A DNA stretch of 39,504 bases from an uncultured Nitratifractor sp. (lineage in GTDB: Bacteria; Campylobacterota; Campylobacteria; Campylobacterales; Sulfurovaceae), in the NCBI GenBank assembly GCA_947311565.1, contig CAMZLH010000050.1, positions 1 to 39,504 on the forward strand, written 5' to 3'. The position numbers were made by a program, and so were the translations under genes. Below the pieces are notes generated by a model. It was not told the origin of the DNA, did no database searches, and saw only the letters and a program-made list of their open reading frames with translations. Shown here piece by piece: positions 27,143-39,504 of this stretch; position 1 is the stretch's first letter, and the number at the start of each line of letters is the position of its first letter.

Positions 27143-28345
27143 TTGTATCTTTTTACAAGCGAAGTTGTTAGCCCAGGTCATCCAGATAAGTGTGCAGATA
27201 TAATTGCAGATAGTATTGTGGATAAGTTAATTATAGGTGACTCTAGCTCTAGAGTTGCTTCAGAGGTTTTTGTAGCAGGTAAACATGTTGTAATTGGTGG
27301 AGAGGTTACATCTAGTACTAACTTAACAAGTGAAGATTATGAAAAAATTGTTCACAATGCACTTGTAGAGATTGGCTATAACGGTAACCCATACTTTACA
27401 AAAGAGGAGTGTTTGTACCCTGAAGATGTAGAGGTTCAAGTTTTACTTAATTCTCAGTCACCAGATATTAACCAAGGAGTTGATAGAGAAGATGGAGAGA
27501 TTGGTGCTGGTGATCAAGGGATTATGTTTGGTTATGCCGATAGTGAGACTAAAGAGTATATGCCAAGTGCAATTACTTATGCAAGAGTTTTAATGCAAAA
27601 GGTTTATGAGTATGCCAAGTCTAATCCATCTAAGCTTGGTGTTGATATAAAGACACAAGTTACAATAGATTATGAGACAAAAGATAATTTCGAGAGTTGT
27701 AATCCTAAAAAGATTCACACCATTGTTGTATCTGCTCCTTGTGTATCAAGTATGAGTATAGATGAGGTTAGAGAGTTAATTCAAACTCTTATAGATGATG
27801 CAGGACTTCCTAAAGAGCTTTATAGTAAAGATGATTGTATTATTCATATTAATCCAACAGGCAAGTATGTATCACACTCATCTTTGCATGATTCTGGTCT
27901 AACTGGTAGAAAACTAATCGTAGATAGCTTTGGTGGGTATGCTCCTATTGGTGGTGGTGCTCAAAGCTCTAAAGATTATACTAAAGTTGATCGTTCTGGT
28001 CTTTATGCTGCTAGATATATTGCAAAACATATTGTTGCTGCAAAACTTGCTAAAAAATGTGTAGTTCAGCTATCTTACGCTATCGGAGTTGCAAAGCCAA
28101 CATCTATTGCAGTAGATACCTATGGAACAGTAGTTGAGGGATTAGATGATAATAAGTTGTCGCAATTTATTATGGATAACTTTCCTTTAACACCAAATTG
28201 GATTACAAAAAAGTTTAAACTAGATAAACCATCTAAAGATACTTTCCTTTATGCAGATGTTGCAGCAAGAGGTCAGGTAGGGCAGAGTGACTACCCATGG
28301 GAGAAGTTGGATAACTTAGATATGTTTAAAAAACTTAATGGCTAA
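27143..28345 (+). CDS. metK: S-adenosylmethionine synthetase
   Basis: MetK makes S-adenosylmethionine from methionine and ATP. Residue 1 is encoded by TTG (27143-27145), supported by AAGGAG five bases upstream. Landmarks are SEVVSPGHPDKCADIIADS, GAGDQGIMFGYA (the ATP motif), HINPTGKYV and the second signature, here PIGGGAQSSKDYTKVDRS. The QSSKDY form replaces the widespread FSGKDPTKVDRS and is what I know from Campylobacter relatives. It has 400 residues. The glycan locus starts only six bases after its stop. Confidence 0.96.
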   Translation: MYLFTSEVVSPGHPDKCADIIADSIVDKLIIGDSSSRVASEVFVAGKHVVIGGEVTSSTNLTSEDYEKIVHNALVEIGYNGNPYFTKEECLYPEDVEVQVLLNSQSPDINQGVDREDGEIGAGDQGIMFGYADSETKEYMPSAITYARVLMQKVYEYAKSNPSKLGVDIKTQVTIDYETKDNFESCNPKKIHTIVVSAPCVSSMSIDEVRELIQTLIDDAGLPKELYSKDDCIIHINPTGKYVSHSSLHDSGLTGRKLIVDSFGGYAPIGGGAQSSKDYTKVDRSGLYAARYIAKHIVAAKLAKKCVVQLSYAIGVAKPTSIAVDTYGTVVEGLDDNKLSQFIMDNFPLTPNWITKKFKLDKPSKDTFLYADVAARGQVGQSDYPWEKLDNLDMFKKLNG

Positions 28346-28351
28346 CTCTTT

Positions 28352-29194
28352 ATGGATAAGAGGAGGCTAACCCCAACAGATATAGTTGTATATAAAGAGA
28401 TAGGCAAGGATGAGATAGATTTTAAAGAAATAATTAAAGTTATATATAGCTATAAAAGATTTATATCTCTATTTTTTGTCGTCTCTTTATTGTTAGCTCT
28501 GCTATATCTATTTATTACTAAACCAATATATAGGGTAGATGCACAGATAGAGTTAGGTTCATATATTAAATATAATAATAACATTCAAAAGAGAGTTTTT
28601 TTTACAAAACCAGATAAGATAATAGATATAGTTAAGTATAAGTTTGATCGTAAAATAGATAACAGATCAATATATCCAAAGATAGAGATAGTCCAAAGTA
28701 GTGGTTTGTTAAGCATAAGTGTAGAAGATTATAGTAACCAAGGTGCATTAAATTACCTAAAAGAGATTATTAATTTTATCAAGAGTAAAGAGTTAGTTAG
28801 TATATTAGCATATAAAAAATTTCTTAAAAAAGAGTTATATATATTAGATGATACTGAAAAAGAGTATAAAGGAAATCTGAAAAAATTATATAAGAGGCTA
28901 AATAGCCCACTAAATAGTAAAATAGAAGAGAGTATAATATTTCAAATATCAGAATATAATAAATTAATCAGTAGTATAAAATTGGATAAAAATAGATATC
29001 AATATATACTTTCAGTCATAACTGAGGTAAACTTTACTAATGAGATAAAAAAGAGTACCAAACCCATTAAACCTAAGTACAATTTAATACTATTAATAGC
29101 TTCTATAGCTAGTATTCTTAGTGCCATTTTTATAGTTTTTCTAATTGAATTTATAAAAGAGGGTAGTGATAAATTAGTTTTAAAAGGTAACTAA
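28352..29194 (+). CDS. Wzz-like chain-length determinant protein
   Basis: The 280-residue protein has the Wzz topology: an N-terminal transmembrane segment (about 37-55), a long helical periplasmic region with coiled-coil character, and a second segment (about 244-267) preceded by the Pro-rich KPIKPKYN typical of these co-polymerases. No tyrosine-kinase domain is present, so it is the simple Wzz type. It would set the length of the polymer made by the EpsG/Wzy-like protein downstream. No clear ribosome-binding site precedes its ATG; it may be translated by readthrough coupling from metK. Its stop overlaps the flippase start by one base. Confidence 0.75.
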   Translation: MDKRRLTPTDIVVYKEIGKDEIDFKEIIKVIYSYKRFISLFFVVSLLLALLYLFITKPIYRVDAQIELGSYIKYNNNIQKRVFFTKPDKIIDIVKYKFDRKIDNRSIYPKIEIVQSSGLLSISVEDYSNQGALNYLKEIINFIKSKELVSILAYKKFLKKELYILDDTEKEYKGNLKKLYKRLNSPLNSKIEESIIFQISEYNKLISSIKLDKNRYQYILSVITEVNFTNEIKKSTKPIKPKYNLILLIASIASILSAIFIVFLIEFIKEGSDKLVLKGN

Positions 29195-30687
29195 TGCTTC
29201 GTAAAAATTTATTGATAAATATATTTATAACTTTATCTATAGGTATATTATCTTTTATTATTAATAAAGTTTTTGCAGATATATTAGGTAAAGAAGCACT
29301 AGGGCTTATGAGTTTGATGACTCAACTTATATCATATTTAAATTTAGTAGATATGGGTATAACAACAGCTGCAACATATGCATTATATAAGCCTCTTTCT
29401 AATAGTAACTACAAAGAGTCTAGTATAATTATATCTACTATAGATAGTTATTTTAAAGTCATATCTATAATTATTATTTTATTTGGTTCTATAATTGCTC
29501 TAGTTTTACCTTATATTGCAAATAGTAGTACTTTTGGCAATATAATCTATATTTATTGGGGTTTATATCTATTAAATACTGCATGGTCTTATCTAAATGC
29601 AAAATATAGTATTTTATTTATAGCTAATCAAGAGTATGGATATATGCGATTAATATCTGGAAGTTCAAGAATATTAGCAATGATTTTACAACTTATAGCA
29701 TTAATATATTTTAAATCTTTTTTACTTTTTATAGCAGTTTTAAGTTTGCAAAATATAATAAACTATATCTTTTTTAAATTTAAATTAATAAAAGATTATC
29801 AGTGGTTTGTTAATACAAAAGATAGATATAGTCAAATAAAAATAGATATGAAGAATATGTTCTGGCATAAAATTGGAGAGGTAGTTGTTTTTAGTACAGA
29901 CTATATAATTATATCTATCTATTTATCATTAAAGATAGTTGCAGTGTATGCAACATATATGATTATATATAGTATGATATCAACAGTAGTTAATATTATT
30001 ACTCCTGTACTGGCACCATATACAGGTAATTTCATAGCCAAGAAGAGTTTAGATAGTAGCTATAAACTTTGGCAAAAGTTTCACTCATTGTATGTATTTA
30101 TAGCAACTTTCGTTGTAACTATCTCTTACTTTACAATTAACACTTTTGTAGAACTTTGGATGGGGAAAGAGTACATCTTGTCTAACAATATAGTAATTTT
30201 AATTCTAATTAACTTATATATAGGTATATCAAGAGGTGCTTTAGAGACATTTAAAAATAATACAGGAGTATATAGTGATATTTATAATCCAATACTAGAG
30301 AGTACAATTAATTTGCTATTATCTTTGATACTAGTTAACTATATTGGTTTAGCAGGTGTAGTTGTGGGTACAGTAGTATCTAATTTAATAGTTATCTATA
30401 TACTAAAACCTCTTGTAGTTTTTAAAAAATCATTTCAAAAGCCTATGAAACAGTATATATTAGAATACTCAAAATATACTGTTTTAACACTTTTATCTAT
30501 ATACTTTTCAACTACTATATTAAGATATATACCTACAAATATAGATAGCTGGAGTCTATTTATAATATATTTTGGTAAAGTTACATTTGTATCTTTTGTT
30601 ATAACTTTAATAGTATTTTTAATAGATAATAACTTTAAAGTATTTTTAAGTAGTTTAATTAAAAAGGCTATAAAAAATTATGATTAA
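29194..30687 (+). CDS. Wzx-like lipid-linked oligosaccharide flippase
   Basis: This protein of 497 residues has about 12-14 hydrophobic segments and the pattern of MATE/MOP exporters: GKEALGLMSLMTQLISYLNL near the start (compare LGxxxyGl in Wzx), a charged middle loop with MFWHKIGEVVVFSTDYIIIS, and a second half with GLAGVVVGTVVSNLIV. It would flip an undecaprenyl-linked repeat unit to the periplasmic side. In C. jejuni N-glycosylation that step is done by the ABC protein PglK, which is not found here. One-base TAATG overlap with the Wzz-like gene and eight-base overlap with the next. Confidence 0.82.
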   Translation: MLRKNLLINIFITLSIGILSFIINKVFADILGKEALGLMSLMTQLISYLNLVDMGITTAATYALYKPLSNSNYKESSIIISTIDSYFKVISIIIILFGSIIALVLPYIANSSTFGNIIYIYWGLYLLNTAWSYLNAKYSILFIANQEYGYMRLISGSSRILAMILQLIALIYFKSFLLFIAVLSLQNIINYIFFKFKLIKDYQWFVNTKDRYSQIKIDMKNMFWHKIGEVVVFSTDYIIISIYLSLKIVAVYATYMIIYSMISTVVNIITPVLAPYTGNFIAKKSLDSSYKLWQKFHSLYVFIATFVVTISYFTINTFVELWMGKEYILSNNIVILILINLYIGISRGALETFKNNTGVYSDIYNPILESTINLLLSLILVNYIGLAGVVVGTVVSNLIVIYILKPLVVFKKSFQKPMKQYILEYSKYTVLTLLSIYFSTTILRYIPTNIDSWSLFIIYFGKVTFVSFVITLIVFLIDNNFKVFLSSLIKKAIKNYD

Positions 30688-31684
30688 AGTAAGTATAATA
30701 ATACCGGCATATAATGCAGAGAAATATATATTTAGATCACTACATAGTGCTTTAAATCAGACTTTACAAGATTTAGAAGTAGTTGTTGTAAATGATGGTT
30801 CAACCGATAGAACTAAAGCTATAGTGGAAGATATAGCGACTAAATATAGCAGAGTTAAAGTTTTAAATATAGAAAATTCTGGTGTATCAAATGCTAGGAA
30901 TATAGGTATTAATAACTCACAAGGTAAGTATATACAGTTTTTAGATAGTGACGATTGGATAGAGCCTAGTATGTCATTAGATATGTATAATTTTGCAGTT
31001 AATAAAAAGTGTGATATAGTAGTTTCAAATTTATATAGAGATGATGACTTAGGAAATTTGGAAATTTGGAAAGATTTAAAAACAGATATCTATCTATACT
31101 CTAAAGATGATTATTTAAAAGAACTTTTTAATAATCGGGCTTATCACTCTGTGTGGAATAAGATATATAAAAAAGAGATATTTAATGATATCTCTTTTCC
31201 AAAGAATATATCTCTAGGTGAAGATTTAGTTATGATGGTAGATATATCTTTAAATGCAGATAATATAGGTAAAATAGATAAAGCTTATTATCACTATATT
31301 ATAAATCCAAATAGTATAACAGAAGATGGTAAATCTAAAAAATTTTATCAACTATTTGATGCATATAGTATTATAGAAGATAGATTACATAAAGCCAAAA
31401 AACATAGTAAATATTACAGAAGTTTTAGTAGTAAAAAGTTTAATGATTTTAGTGCATTTATACACCAAAAGCCATATTATCATGATGATGGATATATTAA
31501 AAGCTTTAATCAATTTATAGAGTATTTACATAGTAAACCAAAGATAGAAAATAGTTCTAACAAATTAAAACAGATATTAATGAGATACTTGATCTCTTTT
31601 CCATATATTCTAAATGTCAAGATTATAATTAGTACAATTACAAGTTTAAAAAAATTTAAACATATGTTTAGAGATGGAGTATAA
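30680..31684 (+). CDS. Family 2 glycosyltransferase
   Basis: This is a GT-A fold enzyme of 334 residues. VSIIIPAYNAEKYIFRSLHS at the N terminus, VVNDGSTDRT (37-45) and the nucleotide-sugar/metal motif DSDD (89-92) followed by WIEP are classic GT2. GEDLVMMVD near residue 190 is the ED acceptor motif. No transmembrane segment is seen, so it should act at the cytoplasmic face on a lipid-linked acceptor. The donor sugar is unknown. Confidence 0.9.
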   Translation: MIKVSIIIPAYNAEKYIFRSLHSALNQTLQDLEVVVVNDGSTDRTKAIVEDIATKYSRVKVLNIENSGVSNARNIGINNSQGKYIQFLDSDDWIEPSMSLDMYNFAVNKKCDIVVSNLYRDDDLGNLEIWKDLKTDIYLYSKDDYLKELFNNRAYHSVWNKIYKKEIFNDISFPKNISLGEDLVMMVDISLNADNIGKIDKAYYHYIINPNSITEDGKSKKFYQLFDAYSIIEDRLHKAKKHSKYYRSFSSKKFNDFSAFIHQKPYYHDDGYIKSFNQFIEYLHSKPKIENSSNKLKQILMRYLISFPYILNVKIIISTITSLKKFKHMFRDGV

Positions 31685-32744
31685 ATTGAAAAAAAGATTA
31701 CTAAATATAACAGGCTCTTTAGGTGGAGGTATAAATAGTGTTGTTAATAGTATATCTAAGGAGTTAAGTAGTATATATAGTATTGATTTTTATATATTAA
31801 GAAAAACAGAGCACATTTCAATACTAGGGTGGCTTAAAAGATTTATTACTATTAAAAAAATTATGCAAAATCAAGATCTTATACACTATCATGGTGGCTG
31901 GCTAATGGCTCTAGCACTACTTTATAAAAAGCCAAAAGCTTCATTAGTTATCTCCCCTCATGGTGCATTAGATAGGGTTTCACTAAAAAAGAGTAGGTAT
32001 AAAAAATTATTTGTAAAATATATCTATATGAAAAGAGCCTACTTAAATGCTAATATTATACACGCACTCACTGATAAAGAGGCAGCAGATATAAGGGCTT
32101 GGGGCATAGATACACCTATAGAGATAATTCCAAATGGCATAGACTTTAAAGATAAACTAGATATTAATTTAGAGCTAAAGAGAAGGCTAAAAGATTTATC
32201 AAAAGATAGGAGAGTATTTTTATCTCTTTCAAGAGTTCATAAAGCAAAAGGTATAGAGATACTTATAGATGCTTTTTCTTTAGTAGATAGTAGAGAGTTT
32301 TGTCTATTTATTGTTGGAGAAGGAAGCAAAGAGTATATATCTTTTTTAGAGCATAAAATTAAAAAATTATCACTTGATAATAGTATATTCTTATTAGGTC
32401 CACTTTATAATGAAGATAAAAATAGTGTTTATGAAATATCAGATATATTTATACTATCATCTTTTAATGAAGGATTTCCATTAACAGTTTTAGAAGCATA
32501 TAGGCAGAAAAAAGCTGTAATAACTACAACAGCAACTCCCTTTAAGTGGATAGTAGAAAATGAGAGTGGATGGTATATAAAACCAACAAAGAGTGAGTTA
32601 AAAAGAGTATTAGAAGAGGCTTTATTAAAAGATTTAGGTGAGTTATCAACTATGGGAAGCAATGGATTTAACTATAGTTTAAAGAATTATAATTTAAATA
32701 CTATTACAAAAAGATATAATTTAATGTATAGTAAATTAATTTAA
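31674..32744 (+). CDS. Family 4 glycosyltransferase (GT-B)
   Basis: This is a GT-B fold enzyme of 356 residues. The N-terminal domain has the glycine-rich GSLGGGINSV loop and SPHGALDRVSL. The C-terminal GT1-type domain has FLSLSRVHKAKGIEILIDAF and the E-x7-E motif in SSFNEGFPLTVLEAY that holds the nucleotide sugar. Two starts are possible: the ATG at 31674 (11-base overlap with the GT2 gene) or a TTG at 31686 that has GGAG six bases upstream. The latter is at least as likely and would remove four residues. Confidence 0.88.
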   Translation: MEYKLKKRLLNITGSLGGGINSVVNSISKELSSIYSIDFYILRKTEHISILGWLKRFITIKKIMQNQDLIHYHGGWLMALALLYKKPKASLVISPHGALDRVSLKKSRYKKLFVKYIYMKRAYLNANIIHALTDKEAADIRAWGIDTPIEIIPNGIDFKDKLDINLELKRRLKDLSKDRRVFLSLSRVHKAKGIEILIDAFSLVDSREFCLFIVGEGSKEYISFLEHKIKKLSLDNSIFLLGPLYNEDKNSVYEISDIFILSSFNEGFPLTVLEAYRQKKAVITTTATPFKWIVENESGWYIKPTKSELKRVLEEALLKDLGELSTMGSNGFNYSLKNYNLNTITKRYNLMYSKLI

Positions 32745-32756
32745 GAGGTATATATA

Positions 32757-33848
32757 TTGAGTAGCTATATATTTTATACATCTATACTGATTTTTTCTAC
32801 ACTAAGTGCATATTTATATGAGAAGAGCCTAGATTATAAAAGATATATATTCTATTTTTTTGCTTTTTTTATACCTTTTATTTTTATAGCAATTAGATTG
32901 AATATGGGTACAGATTATAGTAGTTACGTAGATATCTTTAATGAGATATCAAATGGAAAAGATTTAAGAATAGAGTATGGGTATACCCTATTAAATAAAT
33001 TAGTGCAGATTGTTGGGTTAAATGTTCAATGGGTATTTGCAATAATGGGATTTTTTACTATATATTACTCTTATAGAAGTTTGCCTAAAGATGCTTTTAC
33101 AATAGGAGTATTTTTATTTATAACTATATACTATTTTCAAGGTAGCTATAATCAAATACGACAAGGATTAGCAGTTGCAATTATGTCGTATGCATTTAAG
33201 TATATTTATGAAAAAAATATACTTAAATATATTTTATACTCTGTAGTATCTTCTCTGTTTCATTTTCCTACAGCTATGATTCTATTTTTTATATATTTTA
33301 TAGGAAATATACGATTGAATAGATTTGTTATGATAGCTATTGTAGTAGTTGTATTTGTAGCCGTAGAGCAACATTTAATAGCAGACTACTTAAAATTATT
33401 TATGAGTATATTCCCTTCAGACTATATAGACTATCTTGATGGAAAGTTTGGCTCATCTAACTATAGTAGATATGGAATGTTAATGCCTTTTTTACAAAGC
33501 CTATTATCTATAATAGTATTTTATAATAAAGATAGAGTAACTGCTATATACCCACAAGCTAATATTTTAATTAACCTATATCTACTTTACGAACTCTTTT
33601 ATTTGTTGCACTTTGAGATAACAATATTTAACAGATTACAATATATGTTTGTATTTGCTTTTATAATATCTTTACTATACTTTATTCTATCATTTAATAG
33701 CAGAAGAAGAGTAATAGTTCTCTATATATTATCCTTGAGCTACTTTTTAATATTTCTTAGATTTATACATAATGGTAGCACTACAAAGGTAGATAGTACA
33801 CATATTAATCCATATAAAAATATTATTTTTGATAAAGGAGATCAATGA
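32757..33848 (+). CDS. EpsG-family polysaccharide polymerase (Wzy-like)
   Basis: This is a polytopic membrane protein of 363 residues with about ten segments. FIAIRLNMGTDYSSYVDIF and GSYNQIRQGLAVAIM, with HFPTAMILFFIYF after, match the EpsG group, which polymerises or extends lipid-linked repeat units and functionally replaces Wzy. It starts at TTG (32757), with GAGG upstream. With a Wzz-like protein and flippase in the same operon it suggests that the glycan is polymeric. Other EpsG members act in exopolysaccharide synthesis. Confidence 0.8.
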   Translation: MSSYIFYTSILIFSTLSAYLYEKSLDYKRYIFYFFAFFIPFIFIAIRLNMGTDYSSYVDIFNEISNGKDLRIEYGYTLLNKLVQIVGLNVQWVFAIMGFFTIYYSYRSLPKDAFTIGVFLFITIYYFQGSYNQIRQGLAVAIMSYAFKYIYEKNILKYILYSVVSSLFHFPTAMILFFIYFIGNIRLNRFVMIAIVVVVFVAVEQHLIADYLKLFMSIFPSDYIDYLDGKFGSSNYSRYGMLMPFLQSLLSIIVFYNKDRVTAIYPQANILINLYLLYELFYLLHFEITIFNRLQYMFVFAFIISLLYFILSFNSRRRVIVLYILSLSYFLIFLRFIHNGSTTKVDSTHINPYKNIIFDKGDQ

Positions 33849-34876
33849 ATTATAAAGTAGATTTTGTATTGCCATGGGTAGATAGTAGCGATAGGGAGTG
33901 GCAAAAAGAGAAGGAGCAGTATAATCTAATAGAAGATAATGACATTAACTCTAACTCTAGATATAGAGATATGGGGACATTGAAATATGTTTTAAGAGGT
34001 ATAGAAAAAAACTGTCCATGGTATAATAAAATATATATCATAACTACAGGACACTACCCCAAGTGGCTTGATATAGATCATAAAAAAATTGTTTTAGTTA
34101 AACATGAAGATATATATTTTGATAAATCTCATCTACCTACATTTAACTCCAACTCTATAGAGATGAATATTTTAAATATTCAAGAGTTAAGTGATAAGTT
34201 TATATACTTAAATGATGATATGATAATACTTAGAGAAGTTACGAAAGATAGATTCTTTAAAAATAGTAAACCTATTGATTTTTTTTCTCATAGTTGGATT
34301 AAAAGAGGTAAACTATTTGAAAAGATTAGAGGTAGAGATAGTTGGATACACTCTTTGAATAATAATATAGAACATATAAATAAAAGCTACTATCCTTACA
34401 AAGTAGATAGAGAGAAACTTTTTCATAAAAGTTATCCGACAAGAGTAATAATTGCAAATTTTTTACTAAAATATATATATAAAAAAATATTTTGGCTAGA
34501 GCACTGGCACCACCCTCAACCATATTTAAAAAATACACTTAAAGAAGCATATAAAAATTTTCATAATGATATGCTACAGTGCTCTAAAAATAGATTTAGA
34601 TCAAATAGTGATTTGACTCCATATCTATATAGATATATCCATTTAGTAAAAGGTGATTTTGAGCCATACTATAATAATGACTCTATTGTCTCTAACTTAA
34701 ATAGTATTGATATATTATACAGTTTGATAGAAAAAATTGATAGTAATATAGATATAAAATTTGCATGTTTTAATGATTCTACTAATTTAATAGATGATGA
34801 GTATGATATAATCACTGAGAAGTTAAATCATTTTTTAGATAAATATCTTCCCGAAAAAGCCTCTTTTGAGCTATAG
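33845..34876 (+). CDS. Stealth-family sugar-phosphate transferase
   Basis: Stealth proteins transfer hexose-1-phosphate to make phosphodiester-linked polysaccharides such as meningococcal capsules, and resemble the animal GlcNAc-1-phosphotransferase. Conserved region 1 is VDFVLPWVDSSD (residues 5-16). Conserved region 2 covers RYRDMGTLKYVLRGIEKN through KIYIITTGHYPKWLD and DKFIYLNDDMIIL (39-129). The region with HWHHPQPYLK and FHNDMLQCSKNRFRSNSDLT corresponds to the later conserved blocks. It has 343 residues. The gene shares four bases with the polymerase gene. It predicts a phosphate bridge in the glycan. Confidence 0.88.
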   Translation: MNYKVDFVLPWVDSSDREWQKEKEQYNLIEDNDINSNSRYRDMGTLKYVLRGIEKNCPWYNKIYIITTGHYPKWLDIDHKKIVLVKHEDIYFDKSHLPTFNSNSIEMNILNIQELSDKFIYLNDDMIILREVTKDRFFKNSKPIDFFSHSWIKRGKLFEKIRGRDSWIHSLNNNIEHINKSYYPYKVDREKLFHKSYPTRVIIANFLLKYIYKKIFWLEHWHHPQPYLKNTLKEAYKNFHNDMLQCSKNRFRSNSDLTPYLYRYIHLVKGDFEPYYNNDSIVSNLNSIDILYSLIEKIDSNIDIKFACFNDSTNLIDDEYDIITEKLNHFLDKYLPEKASFEL

Positions 34877-34884
34877 GAGTTTGT

Positions 34885-35694
34885 ATGAAGTTTTCAGTTT
34901 TAATCTCTATTTATTATAAAGAGAGAGCATCCTATTTTAATAGATGTATGCAGAGTATTTGGGATGAGCAGAGTATAAAACCAAATGAGATAGTATTAGT
35001 AGAAGATGGAGAGTTAACTTTAGAGCTTTATGACTTAATAGATAAGTGGGAACAGAAGTTAAATGGTATATTAATTCGTTTACAATTAGATACAAATGTA
35101 GGACTTGGAGATGCTTTAAATATTGGACTACACTCGTGTAACTTTGAGTTAATAGCACGAATGGATAGTGATGATATAGCTAGGAGAGATAGGTTTGAAA
35201 AACAACTAAAAATATTACAAAACGGCGTTGATATTTGTAGCTCTTGGGTAAGTGAATTTGATATTGACGAAAGAGAGATAATATCATATAGGAGAGTTCC
35301 AGAACTTCATAAAGATATTCTAATATTTTCAAAGAGTAGAAATCCACTAAATCACCCAGCAGTTATGTATAAAAAGAGTAAAGTTTTAGATGCTGGTGGA
35401 TATAAAAAGATGTTATGGTTTGAAGATTACTATCTATGGATAAGAGTATTATTAAGTGGTGCGAAGTTTTATAATATACAAGAGCCACTTGTTAATATGC
35501 GTTCAGGCTTTGCTCAGCTTGAAAGAAGAAGTGGTTTAAGCTATGCAAAAGCTGAATTTAAGTTTCAAAAAGAACTTTTAAATTTAGAATTTATTACTGT
35601 TTTTAGGTTTATAAAAAACCTGTTAGTTCGATTAATTGTAAGAATATCACCAAAAAAAGCTGTTAAAATAGTGTATAAATTAATTAGACGATAA
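34885..35694 (+). CDS. Family 2 glycosyltransferase (AmsE-like)
   Basis: This is a 269-residue GT-A enzyme with FSVLISIYYKERASYFNRCM, EIVLVEDGELT and the motif ARMDSDDIARRDRFEKQ (DSDD at 94-97). LNHPAVMYKKS and WFEDYYLWIRVL complete the pattern seen in AmsE-type capsule and exopolysaccharide transferases. It is the last gene before the small gap 35695-35748, which contains a hairpin and a new promoter. Confidence 0.9.
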   Translation: MKFSVLISIYYKERASYFNRCMQSIWDEQSIKPNEIVLVEDGELTLELYDLIDKWEQKLNGILIRLQLDTNVGLGDALNIGLHSCNFELIARMDSDDIARRDRFEKQLKILQNGVDICSSWVSEFDIDEREIISYRRVPELHKDILIFSKSRNPLNHPAVMYKKSKVLDAGGYKKMLWFEDYYLWIRVLLSGAKFYNIQEPLVNMRSGFAQLERRSGLSYAKAEFKFQKELLNLEFITVFRFIKNLLVRLIVRISPKKAVKIVYKLIRR

Positions 35695-35723
35695 TATAAA
35701 ACCTTTTATTAATAAGTTTTATA
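35695..35723 (+). terminator. Hairpin between the GT2 and initiating transferase genes
   Basis: TATAAAAC (35695-35702) pairs with GTTTTATA (35716-35723) around a 13-base loop, directly after the stop codon of the upstream gene. It is AT-rich and has no long T run. It may give partial termination, or only separate the two transcription units. Confidence 0.35.
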
Positions 35724-35724
35724 C

Positions 35725-35730
35725 TATAAT
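35725..35730 (+). promoter_or_regulatory. -10 box for the initiating transferase and pglB
   Basis: TATAAT (context tactataatttct) lies 24 bases before the ATG at 35749. It could give the last two genes of the locus their own transcription. Confidence 0.45.
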
Positions 35731-35748
35731 TTCTATAAAAAGAGTAAA

Positions 35749-36750
35749 ATGTTATACTTTATACTTGCATTTACAATATCTATAGTAATATCGCTATTTA
35801 TTATTTACTATAGTCATAAACATGAAATATTTATAGACTGCAATGAGAGTGATAAACCACAAAGATTTCATGAAGTTGCAACACCTAGATCTGGTGGTAT
35901 TGGTATAATAGGAGGCTTTATACTCTTACTCTTTTCTGTATTTGGCATAAAGCTACTAATTCCTACAATTTTAGCTTTCATATCTGGAATATTTGAAGAT
36001 TTTAACAACTCGTTAAGTGCAAGAACTAGATTAATACTACAAGCTATTGCAGCAGTATTTGGCATATATCTATTAAATGCAATAATATTATATCTAGGGC
36101 TAGGAATACACCTTCCCCTGTGGTTTGGATATCTATTTACAATTTTTGTCATAGTAGGCTTAATGAACGCTATTAATATTATAGATGGATTTAATGGATT
36201 AGCAAGTGGTATTACAATAGTTATAATTATATCTTTTGGATACATTGCATATATACAAGATAATCAAGAGTTATTAAAAGTTATATATATAGTACTTGGT
36301 TCAATATTTGGATTTTTTCTCTTAGTATTTCCTAAGGGCAAGATATTTCTTGGAGATGGTGGCGCATATCTACTTGGTTTTATTGTAGCTATTGTAGGAA
36401 TTTTCTTAGCAAATAAATATAGTAGCGTTAGCCCTTGGTATGTTTTAGCAGTGCTAATATATCCTGTTTGGGAGGTAGCATTTTCTATAGTTAGAAAGCT
36501 ATCTATAGGATTATCTCCTCTAGAACCAGATGGCTACCATTTACATATGTTAGTCTACAAACATCTAGTTAAAAGTAATCCTATGGCATCACTATTTATT
36601 GTAGTTTTAACAATACCTTTTACGCTCTATGCTACTATACATGCACACAACTCTTTTTTAAATATAAAGATTTCTATCGCTTTTATAGTAACATATACAT
36701 TGTTATATCTATACCTTTATAAGAAAAGTAAATTGGAGGAGACAAAATGA
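35749..36750 (+). CDS. WecA/MraY-type undecaprenyl-phosphate glycosyl-1-phosphate transferase
   Basis: This polytopic enzyme (333 residues, about ten segments) starts glycan synthesis by putting a sugar-1-phosphate on undecaprenyl phosphate. The family landmarks are KPQRFHEVATPRSGGIGI (residues 36-53), FEDFNNSLSARTRL (82-95, the acidic pair), NAINIIDGFNGL (140-151), FLGDGGAYLLG (200-210) and the C-terminal cytoplasmic His loop DGYHLHMLVYK (261-271). It is not the small monotopic PglC used by C. jejuni. The WbpL/WecA group is therefore the better comparison. It overlaps pglB by four bases. Confidence 0.9.
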   Translation: MLYFILAFTISIVISLFIIYYSHKHEIFIDCNESDKPQRFHEVATPRSGGIGIIGGFILLLFSVFGIKLLIPTILAFISGIFEDFNNSLSARTRLILQAIAAVFGIYLLNAIILYLGLGIHLPLWFGYLFTIFVIVGLMNAINIIDGFNGLASGITIVIIISFGYIAYIQDNQELLKVIYIVLGSIFGFFLLVFPKGKIFLGDGGAYLLGFIVAIVGIFLANKYSSVSPWYVLAVLIYPVWEVAFSIVRKLSIGLSPLEPDGYHLHMLVYKHLVKSNPMASLFIVVLTIPFTLYATIHAHNSFLNIKISIAFIVTYTLLYLYLYKKSKLEETK

Positions 36751-38933
36751 AAAAGGCAAGTCTATTAATTATAATAGCTTTTATATTCTCAATATTTTTA
36801 AGATTTAACTATGTCGATACGATACAATCTAAATCAGAATTTAAATATAATGGCGAATATATTATAAATACTAATGATGGCTATACTTTTGCAAAAGGTG
36901 CAAAAGAGATAGCTAGTGGAGAGTACAAAGATAGAGAAGAGCGAGCAAAGTTTGATAATATAGCACTCGATGAGGGTATATCAAAAGTAACTGCTTTAAT
37001 TGTTAAAATAACAAATATAAAAGCAGAGAGTGTTATATTCTACATAAGTGCAATATTTAGCTCTTTAGTGGTTATACCTGTTATATTGATAGGCTGGAGT
37101 ATTGGCTCTTTAGAGGTTGGTTTCATAGCTGCACTTTTAAGCTCTATAGCATGGAGCTACTACAATAGAACAATGCTTGGTTACTATGATACAGATATGT
37201 TAAATATAGTCTTTCCATCTCTTCTACTATGGAGTTTAATAGGTGCAATAAAGAGTAAAAAAAGTATATACTTAATAATTACTTCTATAGAGATTATTGC
37301 ATACAGGTGGTGGTACCCAGCTAGCTACTCAATAGATTTTAGTTTAATAGCAATGGTTGGTATATATTTGGCTACTGTACAATATTTCAAAAAAGATTAC
37401 TTAGTTGATTTAAAAAACTCTTTAAGTAGTAGTTCATTAAATAGAGTAACCTCTTTCTATTTAGCATTAGTAGCTTTTATGCTTATAGGTATTAATAACC
37501 TGCCAGATATAGCAAGAGTATCTATTGCTGTAGTACTCTATGCGATATACCTTAAAAATAAAGATATATTTAAAAAGTATATATGGTATATTTTAGGCAT
37601 TGCAATTGTTATGTTCTTGGCTACTGGTGGGCTTGATCCAATTATTAGTAAATTAAACTACTATGTATTCAAGAGTGATATTACAAAGGTAGGAGATAGT
37701 TTAAATTTACACTTTTTTAATGTTGCAAAAACAATTAGTGAAGCTGGAGCTATTCCATTTAATACTGTTGCAAATAGAATTAGTGGAAATATGGTAATAT
37801 TTATTCTCTCTATAGTTGGCTTTATTGCACTCTTAGTTAAACATAGATACCTTATTTTAGCTCTACCGCTAATTATTCTAGGAGTTATATCATACAGTAG
37901 TGGTTTGCGCTTTACAATATATGCTGTAGTTCCTTTAGCACTAGGAGTAGCATATTTAATTGTTTATGTATCAAAATATATATCTAACAATTACATAAAA
38001 GGTAGAGAGATATATTTTATATCACTATCTCTTTTAACTATGGCTATCTTATACCCAAATATAAAACATATAATACAATACGACAAGCGTATTAGACCAG
38101 TTTTTATTAAAAGTGAAATAGATGCTTTAGATAAAATTAAAAATAAAATGGATAAGAAAGATTATATAGTTGCTTGGTGGGACTATGGTTATCCACTAAA
38201 ATTTTATAGCAGATTAAACACATTGACAGATGGTGCTATACATAATGGTGCAGTTAATTTTCCTGTTAGCTACTCGCTAATTGAACCACAAAATAGAAGT
38301 GCTAAAATGGCTAGGTTAAGTGTTGAGTATCATGAAAAACGTTTCTTATTACCTAATAGCGATAAAGATAAAAATAGAACCGATATAGAATATATGATTT
38401 TAGATAACGGCTATAAAAGTGCTAATAAATTCTTAAACGATATTGATACTATTAAGTTACCAAAGAAAACTCGTGATGTCTACCTATATCTTCCAGAGAG
38501 AATGTTAAGAATATTCCCGGTAGTAAATAAATTTAGTGATTTAAATATTGAGAATGGAGAGAGCTATAATAGTGGATTCTTTTTAAGTTACTCTAACTAT
38601 AAAATAGCTAATAACAATATATATCTACCATATAATAATCGAATTGATGTTAAAAAAGGTATTTTAATATACAATAACAAATCTATAAAAATTAATAAGT
38701 TAATAGTTACAAACTATAAAAATGGCAAGTTCGCTAAGAGAGCTAATATATTTGATATAACTTCTAAAATTAATGTAATATATGTAAAGAGTAGTAGAAG
38801 AGTTATAATACTAGACGATAAAATGTTAAACTCAACATATATTCAGCTATTCCTACTTGAAAATTATGAAAAAGATCTATATGAGCCAGTAATATTAACT
38901 CCATTAGTAAAGATATTTAAATTAAAAATTTAA
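36747..38933 (+). CDS. pglB: PglB-type oligosaccharyltransferase (STT3 family)
   Basis: PglB transfers a lipid-linked glycan to Asn in the periplasm. The 728 residues comprise about 13 N-terminal membrane segments and a periplasmic C-terminal domain. Metal-binding acidic residues are Asp44 (NTNDGY) and Asp148/Asp150 (GYYDTDM); the external-loop-5 motif TISE is at 329-332 and Arg344 (NRISG) lies 12 residues after that Glu. In the C. lari and C. jejuni enzymes the same spacing holds the Arg that requires Asp/Glu at position -2 of the sequon. WWDYG is at 477-481 and the bacterial MI motif is MLRI (586-589). All catalytic features are intact. Confidence 0.95.
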   Translation: MKKASLLIIIAFIFSIFLRFNYVDTIQSKSEFKYNGEYIINTNDGYTFAKGAKEIASGEYKDREERAKFDNIALDEGISKVTALIVKITNIKAESVIFYISAIFSSLVVIPVILIGWSIGSLEVGFIAALLSSIAWSYYNRTMLGYYDTDMLNIVFPSLLLWSLIGAIKSKKSIYLIITSIEIIAYRWWYPASYSIDFSLIAMVGIYLATVQYFKKDYLVDLKNSLSSSSLNRVTSFYLALVAFMLIGINNLPDIARVSIAVVLYAIYLKNKDIFKKYIWYILGIAIVMFLATGGLDPIISKLNYYVFKSDITKVGDSLNLHFFNVAKTISEAGAIPFNTVANRISGNMVIFILSIVGFIALLVKHRYLILALPLIILGVISYSSGLRFTIYAVVPLALGVAYLIVYVSKYISNNYIKGREIYFISLSLLTMAILYPNIKHIIQYDKRIRPVFIKSEIDALDKIKNKMDKKDYIVAWWDYGYPLKFYSRLNTLTDGAIHNGAVNFPVSYSLIEPQNRSAKMARLSVEYHEKRFLLPNSDKDKNRTDIEYMILDNGYKSANKFLNDIDTIKLPKKTRDVYLYLPERMLRIFPVVNKFSDLNIENGESYNSGFFLSYSNYKIANNNIYLPYNNRIDVKKGILIYNNKSIKINKLIVTNYKNGKFAKRANIFDITSKINVIYVKSSRRVIILDDKMLNSTYIQLFLLENYEKDLYEPVILTPLVKIFKLKI

Positions 38934-38958: not shown

Positions 38959-38991
38959 AGCTATTTTAAGATAGTTATCTAAGAGATAGCT
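38959..38991. terminator. Possible bidirectional hairpin between convergent genes
   Basis: AGCTAT (38959-38964) and ATAGCT (38986-38991) can pair around an inner AGATA/TATCT hairpin, in the 45-base gap and first codons between pglB and the convergent gene. The stem is short and AT-rich and its right arm lies inside the neighbouring reading frame, so it is weak. Confidence 0.3.
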
Positions 38992-39425
38992 GTTTTAATA
39001 AAACGTTTCTCTTTTAACTCTTTAATCTTCTCAGCTAAATATACACGCATATCTACACAATCATCAGAGTTATAGAGTATATCGTTAGCCTCTTTTAATA
39101 GAGTTGCTGAGAACATAAAATACTCTACTGCATCTATTAATGTATTTATATAGTCACACGTATATTTTTTAGGCTCATCTTGAGCTAATATTTTATAGAT
39201 TTTAATCACCTCTTTAAAATATCTCTTACCTAACTCTCTACTCTTAGGGCTTCTTGCATAATATTTAGATATCTTATCTAATTTTTTTGCTATAGCTGGC
39301 ATATCCTCTTTTTTGGCAATATTATGAATATTTAAACTACTATATCGAAGTTGCTTTTTCCTGACTTCACCTATTAATCCACCACAAACCCCATAAAACC
39401 ATAGTTTTGTAAAAAAAGTAGGCAC
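38979..39425 (-). CDS. Hypothetical helical protein
   Basis: I do not recognise this 148-residue protein. From about residue 42 it is strongly helical and charged (KKLDKISKYYARSPKSRELG, LGKRYFKEVIKIYKILAQ, YVAEK-like LAEKIKELKEKRF at the end), perhaps a bundle of TPR-like helices. The first 40 residues (TKLWFYGVCGGLIGEV) are of different character. The start used is GTG sharing one base with the TAG of the upstream frame (TAGTG), as in several other gene pairs here, but no ribosome-binding site is seen. A later start at the ATG 39302 (MPAIAKK) is possible; GAGG lies two bases before it, which is close. It is convergent to pglB and need not be part of the glycan locus. Confidence 0.55.
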   Translation of the reverse strand: MPTFFTKLWFYGVCGGLIGEVRKKQLRYSSLNIHNIAKKEDMPAIAKKLDKISKYYARSPKSRELGKRYFKEVIKIYKILAQDEPKKYTCDYINTLIDAVEYFMFSATLLKEANDILYNSDDCVDMRVYLAEKIKELKEKRFIKTAIS

Positions 39426-39504
39426 TACACTATATAAGGTTTTTTATGAAGTTTAACATCCATAAGTTTATAAATTTTTTCAGCATCAAGGGTAAAAGAT
39501 GAAG
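39425..39504 (-). CDS. C-terminal end of an unidentified protein (runs off the window)
   Basis: On the minus strand an open frame enters from the window edge and ends at the TAG 39427-39425 after 25 residues (SSFTLDAEKIYKLMDVKLHK, then KPYIV). The composition looks like real coding sequence, and the TAG overlaps the start codon of the next gene by one base. Too little is visible to name it. Confidence 0.45.
   Translation of the reverse strand, partial: SSFTLDAEKIYKLMDVKLHKKPYIV

Follow-up and report, generated by a model that had tools for sequence, protein, structure and literature searches.

To our knowledge, all characterised bacterial N-glycans are short and fixed. Vaccine bioconjugation depends on PglB accepting O-antigen polymers in engineered cells. 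In the pgl system of Campylobacter jejuni, an STT3-type PglB acts with the clustered glycosyltransferases PglA, PglH, PglI and PglJ, the initiator PglC, the diNAcBac synthesis enzymes PglD/E/F and the flippase PglK, by which the donor is flipped to the periplasm, and the glycan is of fixed length and made without a polymerase. The Wzx/Wzy/Wzz O-antigen pathway instead comprises a WecA-type initiator, Wzx, EpsG/Wzy, Wzz and glycosyltransferases encoded in one operon. Acinetobacter baumannii PglL, an O-linking, WaaL-related enzyme, shares K units with the capsule pathway and transfers single K units (PMC6333632). Also within Campylobacterota, the WecA/Wzk/WaaL pathway for LPS in Helicobacter pylori mixes components of LPS synthesis with components of N-glycosylation (PMC2841628). 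When Wzy and Wzz are present in E. coli, PglB gives a glycoprotein ladder (PMC2927510). Pneumococcal serotype 4 capsule and Francisella O-antigen are substrates of several PglBs, transfer of a Gal-ended O-antigen required a mutant PglB, and the native glycan of H. pullorum PglB1 is a pentasaccharide with a HexNAc end (PMC11164674).

The window analysed here, a stretch of 39,504 nucleotides, contains an operon that has parts in common with each of these systems. Like C. jejuni pgl, it combines a PglB of the STT3 type whose catalytic residues are the same, a cluster of glycosyltransferases and a donor that would be flipped to the periplasm. It differs in having a WecA-type initiator and a PST-type Wzx where C. 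jejuni has PglC and PglK (no PglK ABC flippase is encoded within the operon), in that PglF was not found, and in encoding EpsG/Wzy and Wzz, so that the contrast with the classical pgl pathway drawn in a preliminary description of this DNA holds. All members of the O-antigen pathway named above are present, but the operon ends in an N-oligosaccharyltransferase gene and the WaaL-like ligase is encoded on another contig. The likeness to A. baumannii lies in a single lipid-linked repeat-unit pool for both a Wzy polymer and a protein oligosaccharyltransferase, as is implied here, whereas the window enzyme is STT3-type and predicted to be N-linking. The H. pylori hybrid is the mirror image, with a PglK-like flippase and WaaL and no PglB, against Wzx, Wzy and PglB in the window. 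Bioconjugation in waaL-negative E. coli likewise joins PglB, supplied with O-antigen clusters, to WecA-primed, Wzy/Wzz-made chains; that combination is man-made, while the one in the window is natural and genetically linked. Taken together, the E. coli ladders, the single units of A. baumannii and the H. pylori hybrid make both polymer transfer and single-unit transfer possible readings of the locus.

We found no published description of a Wzx/Wzy/Wzz–pglB arrangement in the open-access papers searched, in agreement with the earlier statement that no natural pathway of this exact form was known to have been described. The architecture itself, however, was already present in public genomes, including a type-strain genome of 2010, where it apparently went unremarked. 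The arrangement is real and recurrent, and is a new combination of known modules that includes no new kind of enzyme.

Gene content of the operon

The genome has a size of 1.69 Mb on 73 contigs, is rated 99.99% complete, and was examined by searches and in selected stretches; the window is its entire contig C50, ending at position 39504. Positions 28352–38933 form a single tightly packed operon of nine genes, all on the + strand, in the order wzz, wzx, GT2, GT4, EpsG-family wzy, Stealth, GT2, WecA-type initiator and pglB. Intergenic gaps range from -11 to +54 bp, with a 4-bp overlap of wecA and pglB. No terminator-like site was found on the + strand within the operon, the first being at 39172, and an ORF 3' of pglB (38979–39425) is without a Pfam match. 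The G+C content of the operon is 26.3%, compared with 33.3% upstream. Searches with Pfam and NCBIfam models placed Wzx, EpsG/Wzy, Wzz, the WecA-type initiator and PglB where the preliminary description had put them; the Stealth gene is a further member, missing from its list. Assembly of unrelated genes by chance was ruled out by the tight packing and by recurrence of the pairing in other genomes. Near the contig start (702–2516), a gene for a 604-aa trimeric autotransporter (YadA/BimA-like) was observed.

The first gene (28352–29194) encodes a Wzz-like chain-length determinant of 280 aa with two TM segments and no kinase domain (PF02706, E=2.8e-8); the score is above the cut-off, but the match covers only the N-terminal two thirds of the model. 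The protein is 24–30% identical to Wzz proteins adjoining pglB elsewhere. It is followed by a PST-type Wzx flippase of 497 aa with about 11 TM segments by hydropathy (29194–30687; Polysacc_synt PF01943, E=4.5e-9), a GT2 glycosyltransferase of 334 aa (30680–31684; PF00535, E=6.3e-38) and a GT4 glycosyltransferase of 356 aa (31674–32744; PF00534, E=1.2e-25). The predicted EpsG-family Wzy-type polymerase (363 aa, TTG start, 32757–33848; PF14897, E=1.5e-44) retains the invariant or nearly invariant family positions R47, G51, D53, Y57, R135, Q136, H169 and R293.

The Stealth-family gene (33845–34876) encodes 343 aa that match Stealth_CR2 (PF11380, E=1.2e-42) as well as CR1, CR3 and CR4, and its product is 50% identical to that of a Stealth gene adjoining pglB in another genome (G029, locus L055). 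Stealth proteins are sugar-1-phosphate transferases (cf. PMC5974469, PMC10668966), and with such a gene in the operon the repeat unit may contain a phosphodiester. The second GT2 glycosyltransferase (269 aa, 34885–35694; PF00535, E=1.2e-15) perhaps adds the second sugar; it is 42–45% identical to products of pglB-adjacent genes in four relatives (L043, L057, L068 and L070). The WecA-type polyprenyl-phosphate HexNAc-1-P transferase (333 aa, about 10 TM segments, 35749–36750; Glycos_transf_4 PF00953, E=2.1e-29) is 50–57% identical to products of genes beside pglB in six relatives and keeps the conserved Asp and Gly positions of the WecA alignment. The Asp-Asp motif of WecA/MraY-type enzymes reads Glu-Asp in this protein and in five close relatives (L043, L051, L057, L068 and L070).

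The last gene, pglB (36747–38933), encodes an STT3-type N-oligosaccharyltransferase of 728 aa (PF02516/PF21436/PF18527; STT3-PglB core PF21436, E=2.4e-42) that scores 503 bits over residues 5–728 against NCBIfam NF050801 and does not reach the equivalog cut-off of 1300. The alignment with C. lari PglB (5ogl) spans residues 2–727 (E=3e-123). As counted from this alignment, D44, D148/D150 and E332 correspond to C. lari D56, D154/D156 and E319, and R344, R388 and W477–G481 to R331, R375 and WWDYG; the same catalytic positions are invariant across an alignment of ten sequences. The enzyme is thus full length and has the catalytic set of C. lari PglB, bearing out its earlier designation as complete. 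R331 of PglB is linked to the acidic residue at -2 in bacterial sequons, and since its equivalent is kept, the predicted acceptor sequon of the window PglB is D/E-X-N-X-S/T.

Recurrence in relatives and origin of the locus

Among 119 relatives of the order, PglB occurs in 98 and EpsG in 18, and by position EpsG lies near pglB only in the window; among loci read later, this was the case only in L263. Of 138 partly overlapping pglB loci, 26 had WecA and at least 16 had Wzx by our own HMMs, counts that are lower bounds owing to contig ends and HMM reach. Many related pglB loci contain Wzx or WecA and no detectable polymerase. Six relatives have a wecA–pglB neighbourhood in which WecA is an orthologue of the window protein. 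When 399 genomes of the order were searched with a Wzz alignment, 30 loci were retrieved, and in seven of them, not counting the window, the distance between pglB and wzz is at most about 1.5 kb; four of the Wzz proteins in the alignment had been picked for nearness to pglB, which biases the search towards such loci. Among seven genomes selected without regard to Wzz, three have Wzz within 30 kb of pglB (random expectation P about 0.001), which is no test of function because glycan genes cluster anyway.

The genomes G132 (L261), G144 (L262) and G179 (L264) have the gene order wzx, polytopic polymerase candidate, wecA, WbpM-like, wzz and pglB, while G240 (L263) has EpsG, wecA, WbpM, wzz and pglB, with no wzx in the stretch read. 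In G132, taken as Sulfurospirillum deleyianum, wzz adjoins pglB within a Wzx/Wzy-type cluster, a pairing also present in such clusters of other Sulfurospirillaceae. Because this cultured type strain appears to carry the arrangement, the question of what PglB transfers is testable now. G129 (L266), taken as Nautilia profundicola, likewise has wzz next to pglB in a cluster of this type, but the two genes are divergent. The polymerases of these loci gave matches to EpsG in L263 (E=1.1e-27), Wzy_C in L266 (E=1.7e-13) and TIGR04370 in L206/L264 (isolate CTSoil_042, E=1.2e-12); the candidate of L262 has a sub-threshold Wzy_C match, and those of L261 (445 aa) and L267 (386 aa) are assigned from topology and position alone. 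One further locus, L093, was rejected as a same-operon case since its polymerase is about 7 kb from pglB with oppositely oriented genes between.

All eight comparison genomes encode PglB, seven of them in single copy, and S. deleyianum, L262, L263, L206/L264 and N. profundicola have one PglB each. A WaaL-like protein is encoded in seven of the eight, mostly away from the pglB cluster. Given this co-occurrence, clusters of wzz, wzx/wzy and pglB may serve LPS and protein together.

Several variants were observed among the loci. In L245 (N. profundicola) and L246 (G155), where wzz and pglB diverge, the gene after wzz encodes a WcaJ-type initiator of ~300 aa without the usual N-terminal half. In the complete genome G085 (L085, 4174–5485), an O-antigen ligase/polymerase-like gene upstream of pglC–pglB is split into two ORFs, perhaps by a frameshift or as a phase-variable gene. 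Two tandem EpsG-family genes are present in G043 (L109, 6347–8526).

The window PglB is 32–34% identical to PglBs of its own genus and 44–49% to homologues from Arcobacteraceae, Sulfurospirillum and others. In the PglB tree it lies closest to Arcobacteraceae, with modest support (0.72 at the innermost node, then 0.95). Together with the low G+C content of the operon, the divergence from its own genus suggests that the locus was acquired as a block. PglB had no match in 72,556 plasmid records searched for a plasmid origin.

A second metK paralogue (27143–28345, + strand; TIGR01034) ends 6 bp upstream of wzz and probably has no function in the glycan pathway. It is 84% identical to Sulfurimonas metK, 44–46% to metK genes of the genus and 43% to the other copy in the same genome, on C53. 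A metK-linked transfer of the whole locus may have occurred: the Sulfurimonas-like metK speaks for it, while against it stand the Arcobacteraceae-grouping PglB and the same-genus genome G007, in which a metK of the window type (88%) has a different context and is followed by unrelated genes. In Sulfurimonas, pglB is often located one or two genes after metK, with a radical-SAM-like (MqnE-like) gene of ~350 aa between (L148, L164, L175, L176, L180, L190, L193, L195 and L196).

Routes of the glycan

The window PglB is the sole STT3 protein of the genome, and the operon WecA is the sole WecA-type protein besides a presumed MraY. No PglF was found, the best PF02719 match in the genome scoring 57.6 bits compared with 384–393 bits for authentic PglF/WbpM. 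A PF02397 search of the genome retrieved no short PglC-type initiator gene; it matched a WbaP-like protein of 441 aa and, where a contig begins, a fragment of 129 aa that is closest to an EPS-type initiator. Searches for STT3, PglF and PglC-type genes therefore gave no separate pgl cluster of the diNAcBac type. With only one STT3 and one WecA protein, the lipid-linked glycan of the operon is the most obvious donor for PglB, and the shared operon and sole WecA imply that one repeat unit serves both polymer and protein. The genome further encodes a WaaL-like protein (C9, beside a GT2), a Wzm/Wzt pair in an O-polysaccharide-type cluster (C67), a Wzc-like protein (C22) and a Wza-like protein (C52); none of the WaaL-like, Wzc-like and Wza-like genes is linked to the operon. 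A separate pgl cluster together with a WaaL-type ligase had been named at the outset as evidence against a polymer-transferring system: the ligase-like protein is there, the cluster was not found. Given the WaaL-like protein, a protein-only route is no more likely than shared use of the glycan.

In the most likely reading, PglB provides a WecA-primed Wzx/Wzy/Wzz pathway with a second outlet, through which repeat units and probably polymers pass to Asn. As read from the sequence, WecA would place HexNAc-1-phosphate on undecaprenyl phosphate to start the chain. Still in the cytoplasm, both GT2 enzymes, together with GT4 and Stealth, would extend it to a short repeat unit that probably contains a phosphodiester. 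Wzx would flip this unit, EpsG/Wzy would link units in the periplasm and Wzz would set the modal chain length. PglB would then move single units and polymers to Asn in D/E-X-N-X-S/T of periplasmic and surface proteins, and some of this pool may reach lipid A-core through WaaL, which is encoded elsewhere. We put the probability that PglB transfers an Und-PP-linked mixture including polymers from this pathway onto Asn at roughly 55%. Counting against polymer transfer, O-antigen clusters normally include Wzz and Wzy, and the one here may be such a cluster that happens to hold pglB. The WaaL-like proteins, the single K units moved by the well-studied A. baumannii PglL, the scarcity of EpsG near pglB in relatives, the partial Wzz match and the polymerases assigned from topology and position count against it as well. 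At a little short of even odds, several Campylobacterota lineages would naturally N-glycosylate via Wzy, with PglB attaching polymerised chains of Wzz-controlled length that here possibly contain phosphodiesters. If so, evolution already does what bioconjugation engineers, these bacteria would have surface proteins bearing N-linked polysaccharide and be a source of polymer-adapted PglB enzymes, and LPS and N-glycan evolution would be linked within Campylobacterota.

The same genes could be used by a division of labour in which PglB moves newly flipped single units and the EpsG/Wzy polymer goes to lipid A-core via WaaL. The WaaL-like proteins encoded on C9 and in all but one of the eight comparison genomes fit such a split, as does the precedent of A. 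baumannii PglL with its single K units, and LPS would need Wzz and Wzy anyway. We nevertheless consider it rather unlikely, as the operon is without a ligase gene, the separate Wzm/Wzt cluster could feed WaaL, and PglB in E. coli transfers Wzy polymers when these are supplied. That the operon is an O-antigen or exopolysaccharide locus in which pglB is a passenger or serves a different lipid-linked glycan is improbable: glycan genes do cluster and are exchanged as blocks, and the low G+C content and a PglB unlike those of the genus are consistent with such an acquisition, but this is the sole STT3 alongside the sole WecA, diNAcBac genes were not found, wecA overlaps pglB, the active site is intact and several families share this gene neighbourhood. 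Very improbable is an EpsG-family protein that is not a polymerase (adding, e.g., a single residue), with PglB receiving a fixed oligosaccharide and Wzx replacing PglK, since, for all the related pglB loci that have Wzx or WecA without a detectable polymerase, the EpsG-family match is strong, its conserved residues are kept, and Wzz in the same operon would be without known purpose absent polymerisation.

Contig C23 (L101, 1–2042) carries a truncated Wzy_C-family gene with transposase-like fragments, perhaps the remnant of an older polysaccharide cluster.
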